Below are positions 545 to 52,042 of a DNA stretch of 64,000 nt, piece after piece. The notes beneath the pieces are model-generated. The model saw only the letters and a list, made by a program, of their open reading frames with translations. It was not told the origin of the DNA and ran no database searches. The position numbers and the translations under genes were made by a program. The stretch's first letter is position 1; the number at the start of each line of letters is the position of its first letter. The DNA lies in assembly GCA_016193585.1 (NCBI GenBank), contig JACPRW010000006.1:64293-128292 (forward strand), in the 5' to 3' direction. The DNA is from Candidatus Aenigmatarchaeota archaeon (GTDB lineage: Archaea; Aenigmatarchaeota; Aenigmatarchaeia; GW2011-AR5).

Positions 545-1235
545 TCCGCCGCACAGCTTATATAGTGAACCAAGTAAATAATCAGGTATTATATCTTGGT
601 TCACTTACACCCAAAAAGCAAAGCTTTTTGGTGCACCGGAAAACTTTGTTTTCCGCGTGTAGCGGACAACAAAAGTACTATGTCGGTATTCTTTTGTTGG
701 TCCACTATAAAAGGTTTTTCAGTGCCAATCAATGATTGCTTTATAGTGAAACCAGAAAATGAAATCCCCTTTGTGACCACCACACAGATCTGGTGGTTTC
801 TTTGAGGATTTCTTTCGACTTCGTGCAAAGGACTTGTTAAGAAGTCCTTTGGCGACTTAGAAAAGCTCTGCTTTTCTCAAGTCTTCCCATTCATATGGTG
901 GAATCTCAGAGATTCCACCTATGCAGGTGGTGTTTTACTCCACCAAGCATCCGGTACATGAATGTGCTGGTTTTCTGAAGAAGTCAAAATAAACAGCATA
1001 TGTTTTCTGGTTTCACTATAACCACAAGTCAGGCAGCAGATGCAAAGAAAAGCAACGCTTTTCCTGCACTGGAAGACTGCACGTCTTCCTTGTGCAACAA
1101 GGCATTCGGGATCTGCAACTCCGGAAAGCGGAAGCTTTCCGTGGTTGAGATCTCAAAAACCTCCGTTTTTGCAGATGCCATGCCCCGCGGAAACCACCGG
1201 CTGCAGCCGGTGGTGTAAAGGAGCATATCATCCCA
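545..1235. repeat. dense cluster of nested hairpin modules, including an 18-bp inverted repeat (742-759/1003-1020) and a partial copy of the palindromic repeat family (1021-1231)
   Basis: Many perfect short palindromes read directly (CAAAAAGCaaaGCTTTTTG, GGAAAACtttGTTTTCC, AAAGGACTT..AAGTCCTTT, GAAAAGCtctGCTTTTC, GGAAGACtgcacGTCTTCC, ACCACCGGctgcagCCGGTGGT). Confidence 0.85.
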
Positions 1236-1353: not shown

Positions 1354-1455
1354 AGCCTCGTCCGAGAGTCGAACTCGGGGCCTTCACCTTACCAAGGTTT
1401 GACGGTGCGTTTCCTCGGAAACGCGCTGACGCTCTACCAACTGAGCTAACGAGGC
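1354..1455 (-). tRNA. tRNA-Thr (GGT) with a 29-nt insertion/atypical intron in the 5' anticodon stem
   Basis: GCCTCGT/ACGAGGC acceptor, GCTC/GAGC D-stem, CCGAG-TTCGACT-CTCGG T-arm. Removing 29 nt gives a canonical 73-nt tRNA with anticodon arm TCACC-TTGGTAA-GGTGA. Confidence 0.85.
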
Positions 1456-2282: not shown

Positions 2283-3557
2283 CTATTCCTGACCGGTGCC
2301 GAATGCCGTCAGGTCTTTCTGCTGAGTTTCAATCTGCCGTATCCTCACGTTCATGGGAATCGCGTCAATCCACATGCGCTCCGCCATCTCCCGCATCATC
2401 TTGACGACATCCTTCATCGAGGTGATGATTGCCATGTCCTCAGGCTCGCTGAGGGCAACCGAATCGTTCTTTATCTCGCGCAGCGCGACGAACGAGTCGT
2501 CGAATATGTTGACAACGGCGTATATTTTGTCCATATGCCTGACTTCCACGTTGGCGAGGTCGGCAAGCACGCGCATGTTGTCGCTGGTTATGGGTGCCAT
2601 GAGCCTGATGCGCACCCCCCGCGCTGCGGCGGCGTCCATGTACTTCTTCCCCAGTTTGTACAGCCTGATAAGCCCGTTCGATGTTGTGCAGACGACAATG
2701 TCCTTCTGCGCGCCCGCATAGAGCCGCGGCAGGAGATGGTAGAATTCCTGCCTGCCGCGGATATAGCTCATCTCTTCTATCGGCTTTCCTGTCTCTATTT
2801 CGACCATTTTTTCCTTCGCGGCAGGTGCCGCGTTCCAGTGCTCCTCGAAAAACGTCTGAAGCAGCGCTATGAACTGCTGGTCCCTGCTGTGCAGCGCGAT
2901 AGGAGGGTCTGACCTGAACACCAGCATCTCCTTGTCGTCGATGATGGCGAGCTTCATCTGGAACTGCGTTTCGTAATGGCGAACGTCGGCGAATTTCATC
3001 CACTTGCCAACGATTTCCCTGTTGCCGACGCTTACCGGCCCCAGTACATGCATGGCGCCGCCTGATGCATGCGTCCTTCTGGCCGCATGCATCAGGCGGC
3101 GCATGTCCGAAGAATTAATGAGCAGGGATACATGCTTCTCAGCCATGCCGAGCATGTCCTCAAGCTTCTTGAAAATCATCGCCTTGCTCCGGACGATGGC
3201 GAAATAGCCGGTACCTTCCTCCCGAGGCTGCGGCTCCACCAGCGCTTTAAGGTACGCCTCGATTGCTCCTTTGGTCTCGTGGATGGCCTGAATCTTGTTC
3301 TGCCACTGGCGCACGGAGAACTGCGCAGCTTCGTTGAACGGGACAGCATTGAAGCGCTTGATTTTTTCGGGAATGATTTCGACGAATCCCTTCTCGTGCA
3401 GCCGCTCCATGAGCTCGTACATCTTGCTCCTCGGTATATGGGCTGCCTTGGCGACGTCGGATGCCCGCGCCTTCTTCGTCTGCAGCAGCACGATATACGC
3501 GCGTGCTTCGTTCTCGGTCAGTCCTACCGCCTTCAGCGCCGGGAACAGAATTTTCAT
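2283..3557 (-). CDS. TrmB-family transcriptional regulator
   Basis: N-terminal wHTH LKAVGLTENEARAYIVLLQTKKARASDVAKAAHIPRSKMYELMERLHEKGFVEII, followed by TrmB-like C-terminal region. Confidence 0.85.
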   Translation of the reverse strand: MKILFPALKAVGLTENEARAYIVLLQTKKARASDVAKAAHIPRSKMYELMERLHEKGFVEIIPEKIKRFNAVPFNEAAQFSVRQWQNKIQAIHETKGAIEAYLKALVEPQPREEGTGYFAIVRSKAMIFKKLEDMLGMAEKHVSLLINSSDMRRLMHAARRTHASGGAMHVLGPVSVGNREIVGKWMKFADVRHYETQFQMKLAIIDDKEMLVFRSDPPIALHSRDQQFIALLQTFFEEHWNAAPAAKEKMVEIETGKPIEEMSYIRGRQEFYHLLPRLYAGAQKDIVVCTTSNGLIRLYKLGKKYMDAAAARGVRIRLMAPITSDNMRVLADLANVEVRHMDKIYAVVNIFDDSFVALREIKNDSVALSEPEDMAIITSMKDVVKMMREMAERMWIDAIPMNVRIRQIETQQKDLTAFGTGQE

Positions 3558-3576
3558 GGGGCCACCTGTGCATGCC

Positions 3577-3733
3577 ATGCTCCTTTACACCACCGGCTGC
3601 AGCCGGTGGTTTCCGCGGGGCATGGCATCTGCTGCCTGACTTGAGGTTAATCGAGGATTAACCTAAGTCGCCAAAAGACTTCACAGAAGTCTTTTGTACG
3701 AAGGCAGAATTTTCAAGGCATTCGAGATCACAA
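3577..3733 (+). repeat. palindromic repeat family copy A
   Basis: ATGCTCCTTTACACCACCGGCTGCAGCCGGTGGTTTCCGCGG…AAAAGACTTcacagAAGTCTTTT…TTTTCAAGGCATTCGAGAT. Confidence 0.85.
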
Positions 3734-4237: not shown

Positions 4238-4281
4238 ATGATATGCCCCTCTATAAGCAGTTTTCAAGGCATTCAAGATAA
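4238..4281 (+). repeat. palindromic repeat family copy D (ends only, interior deleted)
   Basis: ATGATATGCCCCTCTATAAGCAGTTTTCAAGGCATTCAAGATAA joins the two ends of the full-length repeat. Confidence 0.7.
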
Positions 4282-4305
4282 CGAGGAACACGATGTCGTG
4301 AGGTG

Positions 4306-12217: not shown

Positions 12218-15200
12218 GATTCTTCTCCGGGATGATCATTGCTGCACTTATGATTACCGCTGTCGCCGTATTCTCCGCCCCCCAGCCGCCAGCCCTTGCA
12301 AACAACATTTTTCTTAAATCAAGAACCATCACCAACTACGGACCGCTTTCTTCCTTTTCCGCCAGGACAGGAGGCCATTATATAATACAATTCAGCCATG
12401 TACCGACGGACGACGGGAAAGCTGCACTGGAAGCAAACGGCATACTGCTGCTCAGCTACCTGCCGGACAAGGCATGGTACGCGTACGTGGAACCGGACGC
12501 AATGCTCACGAACGTCACCTACCTGGGGCCGGTCCTTCCGAACGACAAGCTGCCGCCGATGCTGCAGGAAGGCGTGCCTGACTGGATGCGCAACGGCGAC
12601 GCTACCGCCAATCTTTCGGTGACATTCTTCCCTGACGTATCACCGGACGATGCAGACCGCACCATAGAAGCGCACGGAGGCATCGTGAAGCGCCGCATGG
12701 CGGGCACTGCACGGGACGTGCAGCTTCCTGCAGAATCATTGCACAGCATCACGAACGAGGACGGCGTCAAATGGGTCGAGAACAGCAACACGCGTCTCGC
12801 CGCTCTCAACGACGGCGCCCGGAATGCCTCGGGGGTCACCGGCCTCCTCGACGCACCCTATCATCTCAACGGCACTGGCGTTGTCATAGCAGAATGGGAC
12901 CAGGGGTGGGCAGAGCGGACGCACAGCGCCCTGTCGGCAAAAACCACGCGCGGCGATGACGGCTGCACCGAAACAGAATGCGCCGACGACAGCCATGCGA
13001 CGCACGTTGCCGGCACCATGCTTGCCAACGGCAGCGGCTCGAACTACGCATACCGGGGCATGGCGCCCAACGCAACGCTGATAACGTACGAGTGGCCGGA
13101 CGACGGAACTTCGGAACTGTACAATGAGACCAACCTCTCGACTGCCGTGTACAATGCTTCCGTTTCCCAGAATTCGTGGGGTTACAGCACGCAGGCAAAC
13201 GGGTGCGGCATCATGGGAGACTACACCGCGTTCAGCGCAGCGTACGACAACATAATCCACGGCAATCAAAGCGTGACCAGCAGGACCATGACTATCGTAT
13301 TCGCTGCCGGCAACGACCGGTCAACAAATTCAGCGTACTGCGGCTCGCAAGGCCATACGTACAACACGACAACAGGGCCGGGAGGGACAGCGAAGAACAC
13401 CATCACGGTCGGCGCCGTCGACTCGGACACGTCTGCGATGACGTCGTTCAGCTCGTGGGGACCGACCGACGACGGAAGAATCAAGCCCGACGTCGTCGCT
13501 CCGGGGTGCGAGAACACCACCAACCTCAACGACGCCCTTGCGTACCGCTCCATCTGGTCGACCATCACGGGCAACACGTACAGCGGCTCGTGCGGCACCT
13601 CGATGGCGGCGCCGGTCGTTTCGGGCATCGCCGCGCTCATCTACCAGGATTACCGGCAGACGTTCAACCGGACACCGCTGCCATCAACGGTCAAGGCACT
13701 GCTTGTCCACACCGCGCGCGACGTGAACAACACCGGGCCTGACTACACGAGCGGCTACGGCATCGTCAATGCGACGGCTGCAATCGCCAAACTGCGGGAG
13801 GACAACAGGACCGATGTCGTCAAGGAGGGCAACGTAAGCCAGAACACTGCCGAGACGCACCAGCTAACGCTCTCCGGAAGGAGCGAACTAAAAATCACGC
13901 TTGCGTGGGATGATTACCAGGGAGACCCGAATGCAGCCAACGCGCTGGTCAACGACCTCGACCTGCTCGTGTATACCACCGCCGGCACCCGCTTCTTTCC
14001 GTGGACGCTCGACAAAACGAACCCTGCGACGGGAGCGGTGCAGACCCAGCGGGACGCGCTCAACAATATCGAGCAGGTCTACGTCGCCAACGCGAGCAGC
14101 GGAACCTGGAACATCACCATCAACGGGACCGCCGTCCCTAACGGCCCGCAAAACTATTCGCTCGTCATCAGCGTCACCGACACCACGCTCCCTGAGATAC
14201 GGTTCCTCACGCCTACTCCGGGAAACAGCTCAAACATCTCGTCATCGTGGGTTTACATCAACGCCACATCGAACGAGGTCATAACCGGCGCGGTGCTCGA
14301 ATGGAACAACGGCACCGTCACCAACTTCACCATGAGCGGCAACACCACGCACTTTTTTTACAACGCCACCAGCCTCGATAACCGGACGTACAGCTACAAG
14401 GTGTTCGTCAATGACACGGCGAACAACACCAACGTTTCCGACGTCAGATACGTCACGGTCGATACCATCGTCCCGCAGATTTCCATCTCGCTGCCGGCGA
14501 ACCTGACGTACAATTACACGCCCTCGCTCAACTTCAGCGCTTCGGACGCGTTCGGCCGGGTGGACCGCTGCTGGTTTGCGCTCAACAGGAACGAGACCAA
14601 TGCGACCATCAGCTCGTGCCAGAACCTGTCGCTCATCGGCGCTGAAGGATTCAACAATCTCACCGTGTACGTGAACGACACCGCGGGCAACACCAACTCC
14701 TCGCCGGTAAATTTCACCATCGACACCGTGCTCTCGGTCATCATGGTCACGAGCCCGAAAAATACGACGTACAACTACACGAACTTCACGCTCAACTACA
14801 GCGTCACCGACGTCGCCGTTTCATCGTGCTGGTTCCTCAACACAACCGGCGAGCGCATCAACCTTTCCGGCTGCATCAACGCGACGTTCAACGCGACGCC
14901 GAACAGCCAGAGCAACATCACGGTGTACGTCAACGACACCGCCAACAATACGCAGTCGTCCCAGATTTTTTTCAGCGTTGACATGAGCGTCCCCAACATC
15001 ACCGCCGCCTTTCCCCTCAACCAGACGTACAACTATACGCCCGGCATCAACTTCACGGTCACCAATGCCTTCGGCGCGCTCGACAACTGCTGGTATACCA
15101 ATGTGACAGCTTCATCGATATTCCTCCCCGCATGCGCCAACATCTCGGCAGGAAATTTCAGCGAGGGGATGAACGTTGTCAGGCTCTTCATCAATGATAC

Positions 15201-21867: not shown

Positions 21868-22058
21868 GATTTGCACAAGATATGGTGAATTGCACTAGTT
21901 ATGTCCTGATATTATTTGCAATTCACCTATAGAAAATTGCGCGTTAATACGACATAAGCTGCGCAATTATCTATATGTTACATGATATCGTGCAAATTCT
22001 ATATATCTATATAGCGAATTGCATTTTCATGTTGCACACCCAATGCAATTCTCTATAA
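21867..22058. repeat. multi-hairpin element, copy 1
   Basis: GGTGAATTGCA/TGCAATTCACC, AATTGCGC/GCGCAATT, GAATTGCAT/ATGCAATTC hairpins with outer arm GGATTTGCAC/GTGCAAATTC. Confidence 0.8.
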
Positions 22059-24053: not shown

Positions 24054-24172
24054 ATGATATGCTCCTATATACCACCGACTGAAGTCGGTGGTTTCCGTGG
24101 AGCATGGCATCCCGAATGCCTTGTGTCGCATCTGCTGCCTGAAGGCAGCGGTTTTCAAGGCATTCAAGATAA
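24054..24172 (+). repeat. palindromic repeat family copy E (minimal, 'empty' form)
   Basis: ATGATATGCTCCTATATACCACCGACTGAAGTCGGTGGTTTCCGTGGAGCATGGCATCCCGAATGCC…CAAGGCATTCAAGATAA. Confidence 0.88.
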
Positions 24173-32579: not shown

Positions 32580-33974
32580 CTACTGCTCAGATTCTTTTTT
32601 CTGATAGTACTTCGCCTTGTGCTCTGACGATATGCGCGTCAATTCTTCTTCAGGCAGGGCTGCGAGCAGCTCCCATGCAAGGTCGAGCGTCTGCTCGATG
32701 CTCCTGTCCTCGTGCAACCCCTGGTTGACGAAGCGCAGCTCGAACTGCTCCGCGAACGCAAGGAATTTCCTGTCCCTCATCGAGAGTGCTTCCTCGCCAA
32801 CGATGGACGCGAGGCTGCGGAGGTCGCGGCCGTCGGCGTAGCCGGCGTAGAGCTGGTCGCTCACCTGCTTGTGGTCCTCGCGCGTCTTGCCCTTGCCGAT
32901 GCCCTGATTCATGAGCCTCGAGAGGCACGGGATGACGTCGATGGCGGGATAGATGCCCTTCCGGTGCAGCTCGCGTGAAAGAACAATTTGCCCTTCGGTG
33001 ATGTAGCCGGTGAGGTCGGGTATCGGGTGCGTTATGTCATCGCCCGGCATGGTGAGTATCGGCAGCTGCGTGATGCTGCCCTTCCGTCCCTTTATCATGC
33101 CGGCGCGCTCGTAGATCGTCGACAGGTCAGTGTACATGTAGCCCGGATAGCCGCGGCGTGCGGGTATCTCCTCGCGCGCCGAGCTGATCTCGCGGAGCGC
33201 ATCGCAGTACGTGGTCATGTCGGTGAGGATGACAAGGATGTGCATGTTCTTCTGGTAGGCAAGAAATTCAGCCGCAGTCAGCGCGAGGCGCGGCGTTATG
33301 AGGCGCTCGATTGCCGGGTCGTTCGCAAGATTCATGAACACCGCAGCGCGCTCGAGCGCGCCGGTCTCCTCGAAGCTCGCGATGAATTTGCGCGCCTCTT
33401 CGTTCGTGATGCCCATTGCAGCGAACACGACGGCGAACGACTCCTCGCCACCAAGCACCTTTGCCTGGCGGGCTATCTGGAGCGCGATATCATTGTGCGG
33501 CAGGCCGGAACCCGAGAAGATGGGAAGCTTCTGCCCCCGCACCAGCGTGTTCATGCAGTCGATGGTCGATACGCCGGTCTGGATGAACTCCTCTGGAGGC
33601 CCCCGCGAGTACGGGTTGATGGCGCTGCCGGTTATTTCCAGCTCGTCCCCGGCAACAATGGCAGGCTTACCGTCAATAGGATTGCCGGTGCCGTCGAATA
33701 CCCTCCCGAGCATGTCGTCGCTTACTTTGAGCCGTATGACATCGCCAAGGAAGCGGATGTGCGCTGACCTGTCGATGCCGCTGGTCCCTTCGAAGCTCTG
33801 GACAACAACGGCATCGCGCGACGTGTCGAGCACCTGTCCCAGCCGGCGCTCGCCGTTCGAGAGGCGTATGCTCACGAGCTCGCCGTAACCGACCGGGTGC
33901 GTTTTCTCCGCGAAAATGAGCGGCCCTGCAATGGATGTTATCGTCCTGTACTCCTTCAATGCGTCCAGATTCAT
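32580..33974 (-). CDS. atpB: A-type ATP synthase subunit B
   Basis: [26 protein letters not shown]…[15 protein letters not shown]. Confidence 0.97.
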
Positions 33975-34146: not shown

Positions 34147-37100
34147 TTATTTTTTCGTGATGAGTCCGTTTATTTCGCTATCGATTGCCTTTTCAGCTTC
34201 GCTGAGGATTGCCTCATAGTCCCTGTTGAATTTCGCCTCGCCGATTTTTGATTTTGACTTGATTGCAATAATCTGCTTGACCGGCACGCCTGCCTTGAGC
34301 GCAGCCCGCGCCTGGTCGCCGTAGTGCATGATGGTCGTCATGATGCGGTAACTCTTTTTCACGTCGCTGTACGCATCGACCTCATGGAAGGCGTTCTGCT
34401 GCAGGAAGAACTCCCGTATGAGGCGCGCAATGTCCAGCGTGAGCTGCTCGCGCTCAGGGAGCGCATCGCTGCCGATAAGCTGCACAATCTCCTGCAGCTT
34501 CTCCTCCTCGGTGAGCAGTTTCTTGATCTCCCGCACGTAGAGCGGCCAGTCGCGCGCGACGTTGCTCTTGTACCATTCGTTGATGGTGTCTTCATACTGG
34601 CTATACGAGGTGAGCCAATTAATCGACGGAAAGTGCCTCCTGTTCGCCAGCTTCGCGTCAAGCGCCCAGAACGCCTTGGTAACGCGGAGCGTCGCCTGCG
34701 TCACCGGCTCCGAGAGGTCGCCGCCTGGAGGCGACACCGCGCCGATGACGGTGATAGAGCCTTCGCTGCCGTTGAGCAGCACTGCTTTGCCCGCGCGCTC
34801 GTAGAACTCGGAGAGGCGCGCAGAGAGGTACGCAGGATAGCCTTCTTCTCCCGGCATTTCCTCGAGGCGCGAAGAGATTTCGCGCATGGCCTCGGCCCAT
34901 CGCGACGTCGAGTCTGCCATGAGCGCGACGTCGTACCCCATGTCCCTGAAGTATTCGGCAATCGTTACGCCCGTGTAGATGGACGCCTCGCGCGCCGCGA
35001 CCGGCATGTTGCTCGTGTTTGCGATGAGCACCGTGCGCTCCATGAGCGGCTTGCCGCTTTTCGGGTCGACGAGCACGGGGAATTCCTTGAGCACCTCGGT
35101 CATCTCGTTGCCGCGCTCGCCGCAGCCGACGTAGACGATCACCGACGCGTCGCTCCACTTCGCAAGCGACTGCTGGGCCACGGTGTTGTGAAGAATCATC
35201 GGCAGATTACCGCCGATAAAATTATGTGTCTCAGGAACAGTTATGTCGTACACATCTGTTTCCTCATTGATTGTTTCTATTTCGGTTATCTCATCGCAGT
35301 GCACATAATCCAAGGCTTTTGCGAATTTTTCGAGAGTTTCCGAATGCAGGGCATGTGTTATCTTCTGGAACGTCTCTGTTGTTTGGTTCTGGTCAACGTA
35401 ATACCCGGCGGTAGATATGCCCTGTTTCTGGAGTGACCACGGCTTTGTCGTTCCAAGTATCTGCCTGAACAGCTTGCTCGTCATTGGCACTATATCAGTT
35501 GAGCTGCAGTAATATTTCTTGCTGTAGTAAGGGTGTATTTTAATCGCTTCTTTTGGTGCTATGAATATTCTGTAATATACCTTCCCTTTTACTTTCTTCT
35601 CGCTGCATTTGTTCAATACACCCATCCTCAACAAAAGATACGCAATGCCTTCTGCCATTTCTTTGCTTGCAGTTGCTATTTCTATGTCATTCCTGCTTAC
35701 ATGGCCGTCGCAGCTGATGTAGGCAACCAGGAAGCTTTTTATCACTGATTCAGGTGAATTCAGAAGTGTAGCGGGAACATTGATTTTATTAGACTTCTGT
35801 CTTAACGGATAGTCCAATAACTGTAACACATTAATCAAAGCCCTGCTGGAAATACTGACTGCTTCTACTGTTCTTGCCCAGAACTCCTTTGTCTCGACAC
35901 CAAATAATTCTTTCGCAAGACAAGAAAATCGTTCTCTCAGGCGTGCGTCCTTATTGAAGAAGATTATTGTTTCGCCGCCTCGTATCATGCCGTCTGCCAT
36001 GAGGTATCCAAGAAACTCTGCAAATGCTTCATCCATGTATTCGTGAATCTTGATTGGTCTCGACTGCCGCTCTGTTTTTATATGGCTTATCTTTATGCTC
36101 TTTCCTGTCACCTTCTCGAGTTTCTTGACAAATGACAGTGTCGGCTTATTAACTTTTGTGTAGAAATTCAGCAAGGTCTTGTAATTCAGACCAAGAAGTG
36201 CTGCTAGTTGTTTTTTTGTTATTTTCCTTTCGCTGGTGAACGAATCTATCAGCAGAGAGATTTCTTCTATGGCATTGCTGTCAGCGACTCTGCACTCAAA
36301 TTCCAAATCCATTTTTTGGTAATCAGCATCCATTTCCAACTTTCTCGGAGAAATAATGTAATCGCCTTCTTTCAGTCTGTACGCCTCCGTTTCCATGATA
36401 CTGAGATTTTCATCAACTTTATACAGTTTGTGAATAGGCGTTATTTTCACTTTTTTACCGGAGCGTGTCTTTATCGCTATTACCTGTTTTGTTTTTCCTT
36501 TGTATACGTGGGTAGCTTTTGTCTCGACTATTTTCTCTCCGTCGAAGGTGTGAACAGATAACGGTCTTTCGAGCGCTATTATTTTTTCTTCCCCGCTTTC
36601 AGTTACACTACCTCGTGCGTTATCGAAAACACGTTTTATATGAACTAATTTACCATCTGCAAGTATCTTCGTATCGCCTGTCACGCACTTTCCGCTCCCA
36701 AATGGACCGGGAATCGCTGCAGTGCCGCCCTTGGCTACCGGAAACAAGGCGTCTATAATCCGCTGGCCGGTGAGCAGCGGAACCACTGGTATGACCTTTT
36801 CCCGCACCGGCCTCGGCAGTCGTATCGGCCACTTCTGGCAGAGCTTCAGCTCATGTGTGCCGACGCTTGCAATAGTTTCCTCGACGGTGAAGTTGCCCTC
36901 CTTTATTTCAGTGAGCATGCCTTCAACGCCGTGCGGGACAAGTATCCGGTGCTCAATGACACCACCTTCCTTCACGGTCCCGATGACATCGCCCGCCCTG
37001 ACTGCGTCGCCTTTCTTCTTTAACGGAACAAAATGCCATTTCTTTTTTCTGTCGAGCGCAGGGACAACCGCGCCGCGCAGGATGAAATCGCCCATTATCG

Positions 37101-37395
37101 CCTTGAGCGCGGGAAGCGGCCGCTGGATGCCGTCATAGATGCTCGTGAGCAGCCCGGGGCCGAGGTCAACGGTGAGCGGCGAGCCCGTGTTTTCCACCGG
37201 CTCGCCGGGCTTCAGGCCTGACGTATCTTCGTATACCTGTATGACCGTCCGGTCAGACTTTATCTGGATGACTTCGCCGAGCAGCTTCTCGTCGCCTACT
37301 TTGACCACGTCGTACATCCGGGCATCTAGGCCTTCGGCAGTAACGACCGGACCGGAAACGCGGTATATCTTTGCCACTGCAATCCCTCCATTCAT
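34147..37395 (-). CDS. atpA: A-type ATP synthase catalytic subunit A precursor containing an intein
   Basis: GPFGSGK P-loop interrupted by CVTGDTKI…MILHN, resuming TVAQQSLAKWSDASVIVYVGCGERGNEMTEVL. Confidence 0.97.
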   Translation of the reverse strand: MNGGIAVAKIYRVSGPVVTAEGLDARMYDVVKVGDEKLLGEVIQIKSDRTVIQVYEDTSGLKPGEPVENTGSPLTVDLGPGLLTSIYDGIQRPLPALKAIMGDFILRGAVVPALDRKKKWHFVPLKKKGDAVRAGDVIGTVKEGGVIEHRILVPHGVEGMLTEIKEGNFTVEETIASVGTHELKLCQKWPIRLPRPVREKVIPVVPLLTGQRIIDALFPVAKGGTAAIPGPFGSGKCVTGDTKILADGKLVHIKRVFDNARGSVTESGEEKIIALERPLSVHTFDGEKIVETKATHVYKGKTKQVIAIKTRSGKKVKITPIHKLYKVDENLSIMETEAYRLKEGDYIISPRKLEMDADYQKMDLEFECRVADSNAIEEISLLIDSFTSERKITKKQLAALLGLNYKTLLNFYTKVNKPTLSFVKKLEKVTGKSIKISHIKTERQSRPIKIHEYMDEAFAEFLGYLMADGMIRGGETIIFFNKDARLRERFSCLAKELFGVETKEFWARTVEAVSISSRALINVLQLLDYPLRQKSNKINVPATLLNSPESVIKSFLVAYISCDGHVSRNDIEIATASKEMAEGIAYLLLRMGVLNKCSEKKVKGKVYYRIFIAPKEAIKIHPYYSKKYYCSSTDIVPMTSKLFRQILGTTKPWSLQKQGISTAGYYVDQNQTTETFQKITHALHSETLEKFAKALDYVHCDEITEIETINEETDVYDITVPETHNFIGGNLPMILHNTVAQQSLAKWSDASVIVYVGCGERGNEMTEVLKEFPVLVDPKSGKPLMERTVLIANTSNMPVAAREASIYTGVTIAEYFRDMGYDVALMADSTSRWAEAMREISSRLEEMPGEEGYPAYLSARLSEFYERAGKAVLLNGSEGSITVIGAVSPPGGDLSEPVTQATLRVTKAFWALDAKLANRRHFPSINWLTSYSQYEDTINEWYKSNVARDWPLYVREIKKLLTEEEKLQEIVQLIGSDALPEREQLTLDIARLIREFFLQQNAFHEVDAYSDVKKSYRIMTTIMHYGDQARAALKAGVPVKQIIAIKSKSKIGEAKFNRDYEAILSEAEKAIDSEINGLITKK
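35185..36687 (-). other. AtpA intein (501 aa) with LAGLIDADG-type homing endonuclease motifs
   Basis: C+1 block A CVTGDTKILADGK; C-terminal NFIGGNLPMILHN|T; FLGYLMADGMI and FLVAYISCDGHV. Confidence 0.93.
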
Positions 37396-37403
37396 TTCCA
37401 TAA

Positions 37404-37602
37404 TCAGAACCACTCGCTGTCCGCTCGCAGTTCCGATACCTCCACTTACTTTTTGAAGTCAGAACCACTCGCTGTCCGCTCGCAGTTCCGATACCTCCAC
37501 TTACTTTTTGAAGTCAGAACCACTCGCTGTCCGCTCGCAGTTCCGATACGAGGAGAAGCTTTGCTTCTCCTGTACGTGAAAACCTTATGGTCTTCACTGT
37601 AC
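37404..37602 (-). repeat. 55-bp tandem repeats (37404, 37459, 37514 starts) plus two inserted hairpin modules in atpF-atpA intergenic leader
   Basis: TCAGAACCACTCGCTGTCCGCTCGCAGTTCCGATACCTCCACTTACTTTTTGAAG repeated. Confidence 0.92.
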
Positions 37603-37608
37603 CTCCAC

Positions 37609-37911
37609 TTACTTCCACAGGTCAACGCCGAGCGAGCGCTTGATCATGAGCCGCAAATTCTCCTCGGCCTCGATGTCGTGCGACAGCGTCACGACCGTCG
37701 GGCGCACCTTGGTCATCGCTATCTCCCTGTTCCGTTCCGAAAGCTGCGCGAACGTCTTCTTGTCCATCACGGCGATGCCCACGTCATCGCTGTCCATGAC
37801 CTGCTCGAACGTCCTGTTGACCGTGTCCTTCCCGACGATGAACGACTTCCGCACGCCGGCTATATGGAAGCCCAGCACAAACTGCTCATCGCCGATGACC
37901 GCTATCTCCAT
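37609..37911 (-). CDS. atpF: A-type ATP synthase subunit F
   Basis: MEIAVIGDEQFVLGFHIAGVRKSF. Confidence 0.9.
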   Translation of the reverse strand: MEIAVIGDEQFVLGFHIAGVRKSFIVGKDTVNRTFEQVMDSDDVGIAVMDKKTFAQLSERNREIAMTKVRPTVVTLSHDIEAEENLRLMIKRSLGVDLWK

Positions 37912-37914
37912 ATC

Positions 37915-37950
37915 AGAACCACTCACTTCGTTCGCAGTTCCGATACCTCC
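37915..37950 (-). promoter_or_regulatory. atpF leader hairpin with tandem G.A mismatches between SD (GGAGGT) and ATG
   Basis: mRNA sense GGAGGTATC-GGAACTGCGAACGAAGTGAGTGGTTCT-GAT-ATG. Confidence 0.65.
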
Positions 37951-38002
37951 TATTACCTGCAGGGGATCAGAACCCATTCATTTTATTTCATAACCTTTCA
38001 GA

Positions 38003-42476: not shown

Positions 42477-42660
42477 TAGGATTTGAACAAGATATATGGT
42501 GAATTGCACTGGTTATGTCCTGATATTATTTGCAATTCACCTATAGAAAATTGCGCGTTAATACGACATAAGCTGCGCAATTATCTATACTACGATCATC
42601 ATTCAAATCCTATATAGCGAATTGAATTTCCGTGTAGTGTAAATAATTCAATTCTCTATA
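42477..42660. repeat. multi-hairpin element, copy 2
   Basis: Same hairpins as 21867-22058 with compensatory differences (GGATTTGAA/TTCAAATCC; GAATTGAAT/ATTCAATTC). Confidence 0.8.
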
Positions 42661-42711: not shown

Positions 42712-42956
42712 TATCTTGAATGCCTTGAAAACTGCTGCCTTCGTACAAAAGACTTCCGTGAAGTCTTTTGGCGACTTAGGTTAATCCTCGATTAACCTCA
42801 AGTCAGGCAGCAGATGCAACACAAGGCATTCGGGATCTTCAAAGAGCTCTGCTCTTTGAGATCTCAACTGCGGAAAGCTTCCACTTTCCGCAGTTGCAGA
42901 TGCCATGCTCCACGGAAACCACCGACTTCAGTCGGTGGTATACAGGAGCATATCAT
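42712..42956 (-). repeat. palindromic repeat family copy F (full length, with inserted hairpin modules)
   Basis: Aligns with copy E plus 62-nt (42743-42804) and 65-nt (42837-42901) insertions made of hairpins. Confidence 0.9.
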
Positions 42957-47944: not shown

Positions 47945-49059
47945 TGCTGCCACTTTTCCTCGATAAGACGGTTGAGCTCTTTGCTGGCATCGCCCGCAAC
48001 CTGCAGCGCGGGCGCGAGAAACCCGAGGGCTACGAGCCTGCGCGCATCGTTCCTGTCGATGCCTCTCGAGCGAAGGTAAAATATCTTTTCCTCGTCAATA
48101 GGGCTCACGAAGCCCGAATGCTTCGCCTTGATGTCGTTCGCTTCTATCTCCATGAACGGCATCGGCTCTGCCTTTGCTTGGGAGCTCACCAGTAGGATGT
48201 GCTCTCCCAGGAATGAGTCAGAACCGTCGGCGCCTTTTTCGATGCGCGCGAGACCCTGCGTCAGCGCGCGCGCCGAGCCGCCGAGGATGCCTTTTGTCGT
48301 CGAATAGCCTTTCGTGTGCGGCGTCTCGTGGCGTATATTCGTGTGCAATTCAAATGTTTGCGCGCCGCTTCCGAAAAATATCTCGAGGTCCTGCGCCTCC
48401 GCCCCCTTTCCCTGCAGCATGATGTCGCGCCTCGCGCGCACGGTGCTGCCGCCGAGCGTTCCGGTGACCCAGGCGAGCTTCGCGTCCCTGCCGAGGAAGA
48501 CGCGCTGCGCCATGATGCCCTTGGTTTGCTGGTCAAGATTCTGGAGCGTCGTGTACTGCAGCGAAGCGCCGTCCCTGACGTAGACATCAACGTGCATGCT
48601 CCACACCCCGGCATTTTCCGACGCCAGCGACTGCACAAGGTTGAGCGTTGCGCCGTTTTCGACAATAATGACGCTCCGCGCAAAGCACGGTTTTGCTGCG
48701 AATGCCCTGAGCGGCACCGCCGCGCTCATGCCGGAAGGGATGCGCAGCACAAAGCCCGCATTGCAGAGCGCATTATTCATGGCGGCGTATTTGCTTTCTT
48801 CTTCCGCGAACGTCATGAGCTCCGGGTATGCTTCGAGCGCAGAGAACGCATTGTCAAATATGGCGCCTTCCGGTACGACCGCATCAAACGGGCTGGGAAT
48901 CTGCTCTGCCTGCAGTTCTCTTTCCTCAAGCGAAAGGCTCGCGTACTTGCTCTTATCCCATGCAAGGCTCCTGAAACGGCTGAGATTCCTTTGTCTGAAG
49001 CTGCGGAACCAGACGCTTTCGCGCTCAGACAACCCCTCGACAACAGCATCAAGCGACAT
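47941..49059 (-). CDS. sufD: SufD Fe-S assembly protein
   Basis: SufBD family beta-helix; operon with sufB. Confidence 0.88.
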   Translation of the reverse strand: MSLDAVVEGLSERESVWFRSFRQRNLSRFRSLAWDKSKYASLSLEERELQAEQIPSPFDAVVPEGAIFDNAFSALEAYPELMTFAEEESKYAAMNNALCNAGFVLRIPSGMSAAVPLRAFAAKPCFARSVIIVENGATLNLVQSLASENAGVWSMHVDVYVRDGASLQYTTLQNLDQQTKGIMAQRVFLGRDAKLAWVTGTLGGSTVRARRDIMLQGKGAEAQDLEIFFGSGAQTFELHTNIRHETPHTKGYSTTKGILGGSARALTQGLARIEKGADGSDSFLGEHILLVSSQAKAEPMPFMEIEANDIKAKHSGFVSPIDEEKIFYLRSRGIDRNDARRLVALGFLAPALQVAGDASKELNRLIEEKWQQ

Positions 49060-51683
49060 TAGCCAACAGCCCCCTCCATCTCCAGCTGGATGAGCTTGTT
49101 CATCTCAACGGCGTATTCCATGGGAAGCTCCTTGACGAATTCCTGGATGAACCCGAGAACTATCATCGCCAGCGCTTCGGCCTCGGTGAGCCCGCGGCTC
49201 ATCAGGTAGAACACCTTTTCCTCGCCTATCTTGCCGACCGTCGCCTCGTGCGTCACCGTCGTATCCTCCTCATAGATTTCCATGTACGGGTAGGTGTCGC
49301 TCCGCGACTGCCCGTCGAGTATGAGCGCGTCACAGCGCACGGTCGACTTCACGTTCTTGCATCCGGGCGCGACGTGCAGCAGCCCCCGGTACGACGTCCT
49401 GCCGCCGTTCTTGCTGACCGACTTCGATATAATCTTCGATGTCGTATCCGATGCAAAATGAAGCGCCTTGCCTCCCGCGTCCTGGTGCTGGCCTCTGCCT
49501 GCGTAGGCGACCGAGAGTATGTCGGCTTTCGCCCGCTTTCCGAGAAGATACACGCTCGGAAACTTCATCGTGATTTTGCTGCCGATATTCGCATCAACCC
49601 ATTCCACGAGCGCGTTCTCGTAGGCATGGGCTCGTTTCGTCACGAGATTGTAGACGTTGCCTGACCAGTTCTGTATGGTCGTGTAGCGCAATTTTGCGCC
49701 TCTCAGCGCTACCAGCTCGACAACAGCCGCATGGAGCGAATCGCGGGCGTAGACCGGCGCTGTGCAATTATGAACAATCACTCCATTGGCTACATAACTT
49801 TCGTCATCTTCTACACTGAAATTAAATACAGGGACGTTTTCAACATTTCTTGAGGAGATGCTTTTTATAGGCACAAAGGCGTAGCTCTCAGTTATCTGCG
49901 CGTATGATTTTGCATTAATATTCTTTAGCATCTGGAACATCACCTGATGTCCCACAGCAACTTCATTTGACGGATAAGCTCCGACAGTTTCAGCAAAAAT
50001 TCTTAGATAAGATCCGCCAACATACACACAGTACATTGCTTTTCTGTTTCCGTGTCTATTCTGCACGTTTATGCTAGCGAAGATGTTCATGCGCAGCAGA
50101 ATGTCACGAATAGATTTTGCCAGACGCTTTGATACAGTATTCATTCTGAACATGCGCTTCACGCCCCATGAATACTGATGCATCATAAAGCTGCCATCAC
50201 CCCTCCAAAAGCCTTTGATTAACTCTTTCTGTTTTTCCATGCTTTCATGCAAGACCCATTTAGGAATATGCTTGTTCTGGGCGCCCTTGCCAAATTGTGA
50301 CTCAAAGAATCTTGCGGCTGCGGTGGAGCTAAGCACAATCGATATCCCGTTCTTGTAAGGCTTGTTTTCGATAGGTTTTTTTCCAAAGTACCTTTCAAGA
50401 ATGCTCTTGACATCATCTATGAACTGTCTTTCTTTTTCATTGAAGGTGAATGACAGATAATGCCCGCCTATTATGCTGCCTTCAGCAAGATAATAGCCAG
50501 CCATGCGAAAAAAGTCCGCGTCTGTCTTGATACGTAGGTTTACGTTCCTGAAACCATGTCTTCCTCTTCCAATTCTTACCTGAAAATCTCTTTCCGCTTC
50601 GTCCCTGACTGTCCTATCGATAGGAATTGCTATATAGTCGCCTTTCTCAAGTCTGCCGGCTTCTATCCATTCAGGTTCCCATGCAATATTCTTGTATTCG
50701 CTTTTCTGCCTCTTTACTGCAAGAAAAGGATGCTCCGAAGTGACCTTAATATCTTCAGATGTATCACCGTAATACTGAATTGAGTATAATGGACCTGTAT
50801 AAGGTCTTACGTGCGTATGATAAACTGTCTTATGCTGCAAAGCATGCGTTAAAACATTGTCTCCAACCTTAACGTCCTCTATGGGCTTACTACCATCTGC
50901 TGTTACGACCGGTGCACCCTTTGTGAAGCAACCCTCGACGTAGTGCACGCGCGAGCCCTCGTCGGCGATGATGAGCGTGCGCTCGAACTGGCCGAAGCTC
51001 TCGGAATTGATGCGGAAGTACGCCTGCAGCGGCATCGCGACCTCAACGCCGGGAGGGATGTAGATGAACGAGCCGCCCGAGAAAACAGCCGAGTTGAGCG
51101 CGGCGAACTTGTTGTCCTCGGGCGGAACGACCGTGGAGAAGTATTTCCTGAACAGCGACTGGATTCTCTCGACAAATGATGCGTCGTAGCCGAGGTCGAT
51201 GATTTCCTGTTTCTTCTCTGGTATGAGTGCCTGGTCGGGAGAAACGAATATGACGCCCTGCTTCGCCAGTTCCTTCCTCACGTTATGGTAGACGTTTTCG
51301 CTTTCATATTGCACCCCCACTCCTGCAAGAAATTTGCGCTCGGCTTCCGGAATTCCCAGCCGCTCGAATGTGTTACGGATGCGCTCAGGAACCTCGTCCC
51401 AGGAATGTTCCTGTTTTTCTGTGGGCTTGAGATAGTAAATTATTTTATCAAAATCTATTGCAGAAAGATCTGCGCCCCACATCGGCACCGGTTTTTTCAT
51501 AAATGTATCGAGCGCCCGAAGGCGGAAATCCAGAAGCCATTTCGGCTCTTCCTTGGTCCGCGATATCATTTCTACGACTTCGCGCGACAGGCCGGGCTTC
51601 GCTTTCACGAGCGCCTTCACGGGGTCGTGGAAGCCGTACTTTGACTCGTAGTCAGACCGCAGGTCGAGCAGGTTTGTTTTCAT
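49059..51683 (-). CDS. sufB: SufB Fe-S assembly protein precursor containing an intein
   Basis: RVHYVEG|CFTKG…VIVHN|CTAPVYARDSLHAAVVELVAL. Confidence 0.96.
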   Translation of the reverse strand: MKTNLLDLRSDYESKYGFHDPVKALVKAKPGLSREVVEMISRTKEEPKWLLDFRLRALDTFMKKPVPMWGADLSAIDFDKIIYYLKPTEKQEHSWDEVPERIRNTFERLGIPEAERKFLAGVGVQYESENVYHNVRKELAKQGVIFVSPDQALIPEKKQEIIDLGYDASFVERIQSLFRKYFSTVVPPEDNKFAALNSAVFSGGSFIYIPPGVEVAMPLQAYFRINSESFGQFERTLIIADEGSRVHYVEGCFTKGAPVVTADGSKPIEDVKVGDNVLTHALQHKTVYHTHVRPYTGPLYSIQYYGDTSEDIKVTSEHPFLAVKRQKSEYKNIAWEPEWIEAGRLEKGDYIAIPIDRTVRDEAERDFQVRIGRGRHGFRNVNLRIKTDADFFRMAGYYLAEGSIIGGHYLSFTFNEKERQFIDDVKSILERYFGKKPIENKPYKNGISIVLSSTAAARFFESQFGKGAQNKHIPKWVLHESMEKQKELIKGFWRGDGSFMMHQYSWGVKRMFRMNTVSKRLAKSIRDILLRMNIFASINVQNRHGNRKAMYCVYVGGSYLRIFAETVGAYPSNEVAVGHQVMFQMLKNINAKSYAQITESYAFVPIKSISSRNVENVPVFNFSVEDDESYVANGVIVHNCTAPVYARDSLHAAVVELVALRGAKLRYTTIQNWSGNVYNLVTKRAHAYENALVEWVDANIGSKITMKFPSVYLLGKRAKADILSVAYAGRGQHQDAGGKALHFASDTTSKIISKSVSKNGGRTSYRGLLHVAPGCKNVKSTVRCDALILDGQSRSDTYPYMEIYEEDTTVTHEATVGKIGEEKVFYLMSRGLTEAEALAMIVLGFIQEFVKELPMEYAVEMNKLIQLEMEGAVG
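49767..50930 (-). other. SufB intein (388 aa) with LAGLIDADG endonuclease
   Basis: Begins CFTKGAPVVTADGSKPIEDVKVGD, ends VANGVIVHN|C; GYYLAEGSI and GFWRGDGSF. Confidence 0.93.
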
Positions 51684-52042
51684 ACAGTCCACCCAGTATG
51701 TCCTGAGTACCATGGCGGTAATTCATTAGCATGGTGTTCAGGGAAATTTTTTGTCGGTCCTATGATACTAGCTGTACCACCGCTTATTGCAGATATGACA
51801 TATCTGTCAACATCTATCGTATTTCCATCTCGTCTTGCTATTTCATAGGTTATTGTGCTGCTATTGGTACTATTCCAAACACCAACACCCACTATCTTTT
51901 GACTTAAATCAGGATTATTGAAGATAAACTCATTTTGCAAAGGTATGAAAATAGAACCTCCTGATATTGTAGAACCGTGTGATACTCTGAGTCTATTGTA
52001 TTCCTCTTCTGAAAGGAATTTGTACTTTCCAACCTCAAGCAT
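51680..52042 (-). CDS. hypothetical ORF inserted between sufC and sufB
   Basis: MLEVGKYKFLSEEEYNRLRVSHGSTISGGSIFIPLQNEF…; overlaps sufC and sufB termini. Confidence 0.55.
   Translation of the reverse strand: MLEVGKYKFLSEEEYNRLRVSHGSTISGGSIFIPLQNEFIFNNPDLSQKIVGVGVWNSTNSSTITYEIARRDGNTIDVDRYVISAISGGTASIIGPTKNFPEHHANELPPWYSGHTGWTV

Follow-up and report, generated by a model that had tools for sequence, protein, structure and literature searches.

Nested hairpin-pair insertions in a palindromic repeat of an archaeal chromosome: probable growth of small mobile elements at unpaired positions

Palindromic repeats and other features of the window

The window, by which we mean the whole 64,000-nt stretch of DNA analyzed here, contains 17 perfect hairpins with a stem of at least 9 and a loop of 3-6, whereas Markov shuffles of it average 1.1. 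Its repeats include copies of a family that we call alpha, the minimal form of which comprises 115 nt that together with a flanking AT dinucleotide make 117 nt, arranged as AT-unit1-AT-unit2-AT; within each unit an asymmetric internal loop lies between an outer stem and an inner stem of 8-9 bp, the latter closed by TTCA or TTTA. Copy F, the main subject of this study, its minimal relative copy E and the other repeats of the window are given in Table 1. A fragment of alpha, the 5' end of unit 1, lies at 4256-4282 (minus strand), about 0.5 kb from copy A.

Table 1. Repeat elements of the window and the basis for each
Feature	Positions	Strand	Basis or remark
Copy F, alpha with two nested double-hairpin cassettes	42713..42956	+	Comparison with minimal copy; folding
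AT dinucleotides bordering copy F	42713-42714 and 42955-42956	+	Empty site of the family
Insert 1 (S1) of copy F, 62 nt, apical loop of unit 1	42743..42804	+	
Insert 2 (S2) of copy F, 65 nt, linker between units	42837..42901	+	
Unit 2 of copy F: outer stem, asymmetric internal loop, inner stem and TTCA loop	42902..42954	+	
Copy E, minimal alpha, AT-unit1-AT-unit2-AT, 117 nt	24054..24170	-	125.9 bits with covariance model R1
Copy A, alpha with insert 1 (3638-3699), 3' half of unit 1 missing	3576..3729	-	
Truncated alpha copy with three inserts	1020..1231	+	Covariance model and inspection
Second family, beta, likewise of two-unit design	761..985	-	Further copies L036, L038
Single-hairpin elements bounded by (C)TATAG/CTATA, adjoining copy F	42494..42660	.	

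Other features of the window are LAGLIDADG inteins in the A subunit of an A-type ATP synthase (34147-37413, minus strand) and in a SufB-like protein (49059-51713, minus strand), and 55-nt tandem direct repeats at 37404-37568 (about 2.6 copies, with a partial copy at 37911-37965). The ATP synthase subunit encoded at 32580-33974 has its best match, at 80%, in a Candidatus Aenigmatarchaeota genome, which points to a DPANN-like archaeon. Rfam found only a single tRNA in the window. One tRNA gene of 102 nt (1354-1455, minus strand), missed by ARAGORN in bacterial mode, has an extra hairpin (GCGTTTCCGAGGAAACGC) that is probably a short intron. Double hairpins of the insert 2 type also occur in apparent long tRNA introns at about 550-950 of both L035 and L037 (G000:C9:113650-114050 and C7:42750-43150), as TCAAAGAGC..GCTCTTTGA and CAAAGAAGC..GCTTCTTTG; the 3' halves of these tRNAs (e.g. 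GGGGTTCAAATCC..GGCCCCA) are clear by eye, and Rfam does not call them at its gathering threshold.

The preliminary description held that copy F is copy E with 62 nt and 65 nt added, each addition consisting of hairpins, and the coordinates and sequence of both inserts were exactly as it had them; each is a pair of hairpins. Its placing of the inserts in an apical loop stands for the 62-nt insert but not for the 65-nt insert, because the predicted fold of F, in which the trunk of E is retained, puts one set of extra hairpins in unit 1's apical loop and the other in the linker that joins the units. Folded as single-stranded DNA, copy F gives -79.7 kcal/mol vs. -27.7 for shuffled sequence (z = -15.2) and copy E -31.5 kcal/mol vs. 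-13.9 (z = -6.4), and for neither did any of 200 shuffles fold equally well. Alignment to the minimal copy gives S1 borders with a 2-nt overlap, TC, and the layout TC(42741-42742)-hpA(42743-42772)-GA(42773-42774)-hpB(42775-42802)-TC(42803-42804), and S2 is laid out as AT(42835-42836)-hp(42837-42860)-AT(42861-42862)-hp(42863-42899)-AT(42900-42901). The inner hairpin reported for copy E is present, although its loop of 3 nt is better read as a TTCA loop on a stem of 6-8 bp. Similarly, copy A does carry the first insert, but the loop difference reported between its version and that of F (cacag vs. ccgtg) arose because opposite strands had been compared; on the same strand the loops, ctgtg and ccgtg, differ by one substitution.

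Every cassette, as we term the inserted segments, is a pair of hairpins of 50-65 nt. The truncated alpha copy retains an S1 remnant that is broken up by TATAG elements, and has double hairpins in its 3' internal loop (1044-1095) and in its linker (1113-1176). The beta copy contains an S1 homologue at 823-881, with the dinucleotides TC/GA/TC and in an orientation relative to the element opposite to that in alpha. The TATAG-type single-hairpin elements host alpha elsewhere and invade the loops of cassettes, with such nesting seen at L010, L038 and L285. The TATAG-bounded pair adjoining copy F and another at 21880-22057, 20.6 kb apart, are 99% identical over 96 nt.

Distribution, structure and mobility of alpha

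The genome to which the window belongs (1.17 Mb in 10 contigs) has about 25-30 alpha loci, whole or fragmentary. A covariance model, R1, built from 20 alpha copies, detected diverged copies in 18 of the 19 genomes of the same family and gave no match in any of eight more distant archaeal genomes searched as a negative control. An exact pattern taken from alpha had no match in a wider collection of genome contigs, from which the window's own genome may be missing. Counting overlapping and opposite-strand matches, there were 54 in the window's own genome, 67 in G007, 56 in G018 and 46 in G013. Closer examination covered the stretches around hits and 400 kb of three relatives.

The secondary structure of alpha is strongly conserved by compensatory change. 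In 58 distinct copies 93.5% of cells pair and 34 of 39 pairs have changed on both sides, and the covariation score of 0.628, compared to 0.179 after shuffling (reached in 0/500) and at most 0.105 with the partner slid, was obtained from a model-based alignment that is itself fitted to the structure, a MAFFT alignment misplacing the first pairs of outer stem 1. Does such conservation mean that alpha is a structured RNA gene or a regulatory RNA, in which the inserts are tolerated expansion segments? The strong covariation is what such an RNA would show, and the similar hairpins inside the apparent tRNA introns of L035 and L037 also speak for it. However, non-canonical cells in the three well-aligned helices are rare and divided about equally between G-T (20) and A-C (14), a pattern that suits a DNA palindrome kept by selection or correction, and not an RNA, as there is no strand-specific wobble signature; an excess of T-G was traced to the badly aligned outer end of stem 1. 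Furthermore, alpha has no Rfam match and is scattered across many loci, including the inside of other repeats, with an empty site. We regard a functional RNA as a very unlikely explanation of the family.

At L003, L004, L014 and L017 alpha lies inside another palindromic element in the form TTTT-AT-(alpha)-AT-GCTG, or a close variant of it, and the outer element also exists without alpha, in at least seven close copies that have TTTT-AT-GCTG at the same place and read TTTTATGCTG or nearly so. Judged from this pair of sequence states, alpha duplicated an AT in the loop of the outer element, 2-3 nt from the outer stem, when it inserted, and alpha itself is a mobile element. The occupied outer copies do not all resemble the same empty copy (L003 resembles L270, L014 resembles L274, and L017 and L004 resemble L256-L258), which suggests independent insertions at one dinucleotide, so that alpha may have hit the same AT several times; exchange of arms is the alternative.

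Which form of alpha came first? The best 101 R1 matches from 13 related genomes include 89 of minimal length and 11 with an insertion of about 30-65 nt, and because the minimal form dominates among relatives in other genera, we take the E-type form to be ancestral and F to be derived from it by insertion. The reverse course, which the preliminary description had itself raised, is that F preserves the full ancestral form and E-like copies arose by repeated precise loss of hairpins, for instance by replication slippage. Short repeats do flank each insert, deletions have occurred between GATGC repeats at L031 and in copy A, where the 3' half of unit 1 was lost, and inserts 1 and 2 are found in each of their four possible combinations in the window's own genome (both in F, L002 and L004; insert 1 without insert 2 in L005; insert 2 without insert 1 in L003, L006, L007 and L014; neither in E, L012, L015, L017, L018, L019 and L022), each of which would suit such excision. 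Yet the prevalence of the minimal form runs counter to it, as does the finding that the same slots hold different cassettes in relatives, which needs gains, and that the minimal apical loops of relatives are TTTA/TTCA tetraloops conserved across genera. Consequently, an ancestral F seems highly improbable to us. The four combinations also defeat the simple insertion tree foreseen in the preliminary description, since no pure tree of insertions can yield them without recombination or recurrent events, and the presence of identical inserts at many unrelated loci points to composites that spread or exchange as units.

Insertion slots, nesting and the middle dinucleotide

When inserted copies are aligned to minimal copies, five slots are defined in alpha: the apical loops of both units (1 and 2), one internal loop in each unit (3' in unit 1, 5' in unit 2) and the linker. 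Across the window's own genome and its relatives, four different cassettes were seen in apical loop 1, namely S1, a TTTC..GAAA/TTCA..TGAA cassette (G007, G013 and G003), a CATG cassette (G006) and another (G007, L119). Two were seen in apical loop 2, S3 in the own genome and a CATG cassette in G006. At least four cassettes are found in the 3' internal loop of unit 1, with different ones in the own genome, G013, G014 and G007, and at L285 this loop holds a block of TATAG elements. The linker has hairpins other than those of copy F in L004, L013 and L014, and its contents vary by copy (h1+h2, h1+h3, or inverted h2+h3); hairpins are thus exchangeable.

The preference for hairpin loops that the preliminary description suggested testing holds in a broader sense, in that unpaired positions are favored, internal loops and the linker as well as apical loops. 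Thirteen of 15 events touch unpaired positions, as do 46 of 116 possible sites (P = 2.5e-4), a value that treats events as independent although they are partly linked through recombination of cassettes and hosts, and that comes from a model-based search for copies, which may favor intact stems and miss copies with broken ones. The remaining two events, at L277 and L278, are in outer stems. If each distinct slot is counted once, the evidence for a preference becomes weak (P = 0.09). Since the TC, TT, TA and AG cassettes share one six-base apical loop, the target of insertion seems to be the loop rather than a particular dinucleotide.

Inserts have in turn been invaded. At L038 a cassette hairpin, intact in L036, has two TATAG elements in its apical TTAA loop, and at L285 nesting reaches four levels, with a double hairpin inside the loop of a hairpin element that lies in the loop of a TATAG hairpin, itself in an internal loop of alpha. 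The recursive growth by insertion that had been proposed for copy F is thus borne out by the minimal form in relatives, by unrelated hairpin pairs in the same apical loops in other genera and by invaded apices of inserts. Outside alpha, chains of at least three short hairpins with the palindromic linkers AGATCT and GAATTC were seen in relatives (L047 544-640, L287 about 12400-12480 and L288 about 3290-3370), and downstream of 1700 in L023 (G000:C2) there is a tandem array of about 50-nt repeats, CCCGCGATAGTTTGGATTCAGAAGGAATCCGAACTGCCGTGGGGCGAAAA, with a hairpin in each.

The borders of the cassettes follow a pattern. An overlap of at least 2 nt was found in 12 of 14 events (P = 1.4e-8, with events treated as independent), and we read this 2-nt overlap, XY, as a duplication left by insertion. 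In all seven events in which XY is not palindromic, its reverse complement stands between the two hairpins (permutation P = 0.008): TC/GA/TC, TT/AA/TT, CA/TG/CA, TG/CA/TG (three times) and AG/CT/AG. The palindromic dinucleotides TA and AT are also used, and alpha itself fits as AT/AT/AT; a half-element frame, CAWG-hairpin-CTG, was seen with CA/TG/CA, TG/CA/TG and TA/TA/TA. A looser version of the middle-dinucleotide rule holds for 68 of 142 distinct adjacent hairpin pairs, whereas 200 shuffles of the right flank gave 38 on average and never more than 52. There is at least one exception, a CACGC..GCGTG cassette between TATAG elements at L024, which on inspection has no clear duplication and does not obviously follow the middle rule.

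Could hairpins of this kind have originated in place, at replication forks, through template switching or quasipalindrome correction? The palindromes are nearly perfect, as correction would yield, the inversion of the middle dinucleotide is reminiscent of two strand switches in succession, and there are tandem hairpin duplications at L115 and L132. A local origin does not, however, account for the same cassette at unrelated loci and in two families, S1 being common to alpha and beta and therefore copied from elsewhere, nor for the clean empty sites of alpha, and we think it unlikely.

A possible mechanism and comparison with known systems

We conclude, with a probability of roughly 0.7, that copy F consists of small palindromic mobile elements, all non-autonomous, nested in one another, and that it grew by insertion into unpaired positions of its host. 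The host, alpha, consists of two tandem hairpin units. In this account short hairpin pairs inserted at its single-stranded positions, so that in F insert 1 occupies unit 1's apical loop and insert 2 the linker, and an insertion leaves a 2-nt duplication XY with its reverse complement between the hairpins. Because loops tolerate insertion, the resulting composites would remain mobile or exchangeable, spread jointly and be invaded again.

By what means might such elements move? One possibility is movement as folded single-stranded DNA, with the loops of extruded hairpins as single-stranded target, by a "peel and paste" enzyme of the HUH/Y1 type that would be supplied in trans or has since been lost. 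The middle dinucleotide, a stretch of only 2 nt, would pair with the target in the manner of IS608, which selects its target through base pairing with a guide that the element carries beside its hairpin (PMC5934647). We offer this analogy, with its loop targets and dinucleotide guide, tentatively, as the odds are against it. The Y1 transposase profile (PF01797) has no match in the window's own genome, which is 90.75% complete; it has matches in eight of the 19 family genomes, and alpha copy number does not correlate with its presence (Spearman 0.33, P = 0.16). The flanks of eight Y1 genes in relatives showed no alpha or cassette ends, and have IS200-like hairpins, some with CTTTAG/CTTCAG loops. 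Insertion of IS200/IS605 elements makes no target duplication, and under a Y1 model XY would therefore have to be borne by the element. A dumbbell circle with the core XY would, once integrated, leave exactly XY-hpA-rc(XY)-hpB-XY, and it is conceivable from these sequence patterns, if doubtful, that the cassettes represent a new minimal class of mobile DNA, a two-hairpin dumbbell joined by a dinucleotide and its complement that integrates into the loops of extruded hairpins at a matching dinucleotide and in this way could build up nests with no upper limit.

The main rival to a Y1/HUH mechanism is double-strand transposition by a DDE enzyme that prefers the centers of palindromes and makes a 2-bp target duplication, the cassettes being MITE-like. 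It would explain the clean 2-nt overlaps of most events and the common TA and AT targets, and there is precedent in IS1397, ISPpu9 and IS621, which insert at or near the axis of REP/BIME palindromes, some with 2-bp duplications (PMC1525189). On the other hand, DDE_3 (IS630/Tc1, PF13358) has no match in the 90.75% complete genome, the duplicated dinucleotides are varied (TC, TT, CA, TG and AG, with alpha always at AT), and the coupling of the middle dinucleotide to the duplication would be unexpected; we consider this account possible but rather doubtful. The four profiles searched in that incomplete genome also included those of the IS110 recombinase (PF01548) and the TnpB-type domain (PF07282), each without a match; among the 19 family genomes PF01548 was above cut-off in one. 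Alpha was considered as a bridge-RNA-like molecule, with its two internal loops, and this idea was dropped, its loops being conserved rather than variable and IS110 being absent.

How do these nests compare with established systems? IS200/IS605 elements and their non-autonomous derivatives (PATEs, and REPs with TnpA-REP) have hairpin ends, single-stranded targets and guide pairing (PMC5934647), whereas in the alpha system there is no Y1 gene in the genome, no common ends were found and there is an apparent 2-nt duplication. IS630/Tc1-mariner MITEs duplicate TA, in contrast to the TC, TT, CA, TG, AG and AT seen here. The elements that target REP palindromes are full IS elements with a transposase gene, unlike the 50-65 nt hairpin pairs inserted in alpha, and the GTAG or CGTC tag that stands beside the 20-40 nt palindrome of REP/BIME is absent from the aligned alpha copies on inspection. 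The GC clusters of yeast mitochondria, like double-hairpin elements in fungal mtDNA, are flanked by AG or ACT duplications, and merge and shuffle between units; like the alpha cassettes they are short, hairpin-forming mobile DNA without coding capacity, a likeness of description rather than of sequence, and they have no conserved two-unit architecture (PMC4478555). In the literature searched, which covered few subscription papers, we found no report of nested palindromes of this kind in an archaeal chromosome.

The closest known case is that of the palindromes in the organelle DNA of Volvox carteri, which according to the parts of the published account used here are 11-79 nt long (about 50 nt), usually have TTTA/TAAA loops and are often nested in one another, forming composites of up to 633 nt in mtDNA (PMC2670323). 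The alpha nests likewise consist of palindromes of 10-100 nt with 3-5 nt TTTA/TAAA loops, inserted into each other, and a plastid motif quoted in those parts, TCCCCTTTAGGGA, resembles the stem-CTTTAG-stem of alpha (PMC2670323). The likeness is one of form, between organelle DNA and an archaeal chromosome, and common descent is not expected. The same parts of the account mention neither a host of two units whose internal loops are conserved nor defined insertion slots, nor a middle dinucleotide coupled to the duplication (PMC2670323).

Nested hairpin elements account for part of the intergenic DNA in this archaeal family, and the middle-dinucleotide rule could reveal how the smallest mobile elements choose their targets. 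A broader parallel is with ribosomal RNA. Accretion models of that molecule assume growth by new helices inserted in an older structure, and sister copies and outgroups of alpha show a folded nucleic acid growing stepwise in this manner, with new helices in old loops and the trunk intact. Unlike in the rRNA models or the organelle palindromes, many intermediates of such growth survive side by side in the alpha nests.
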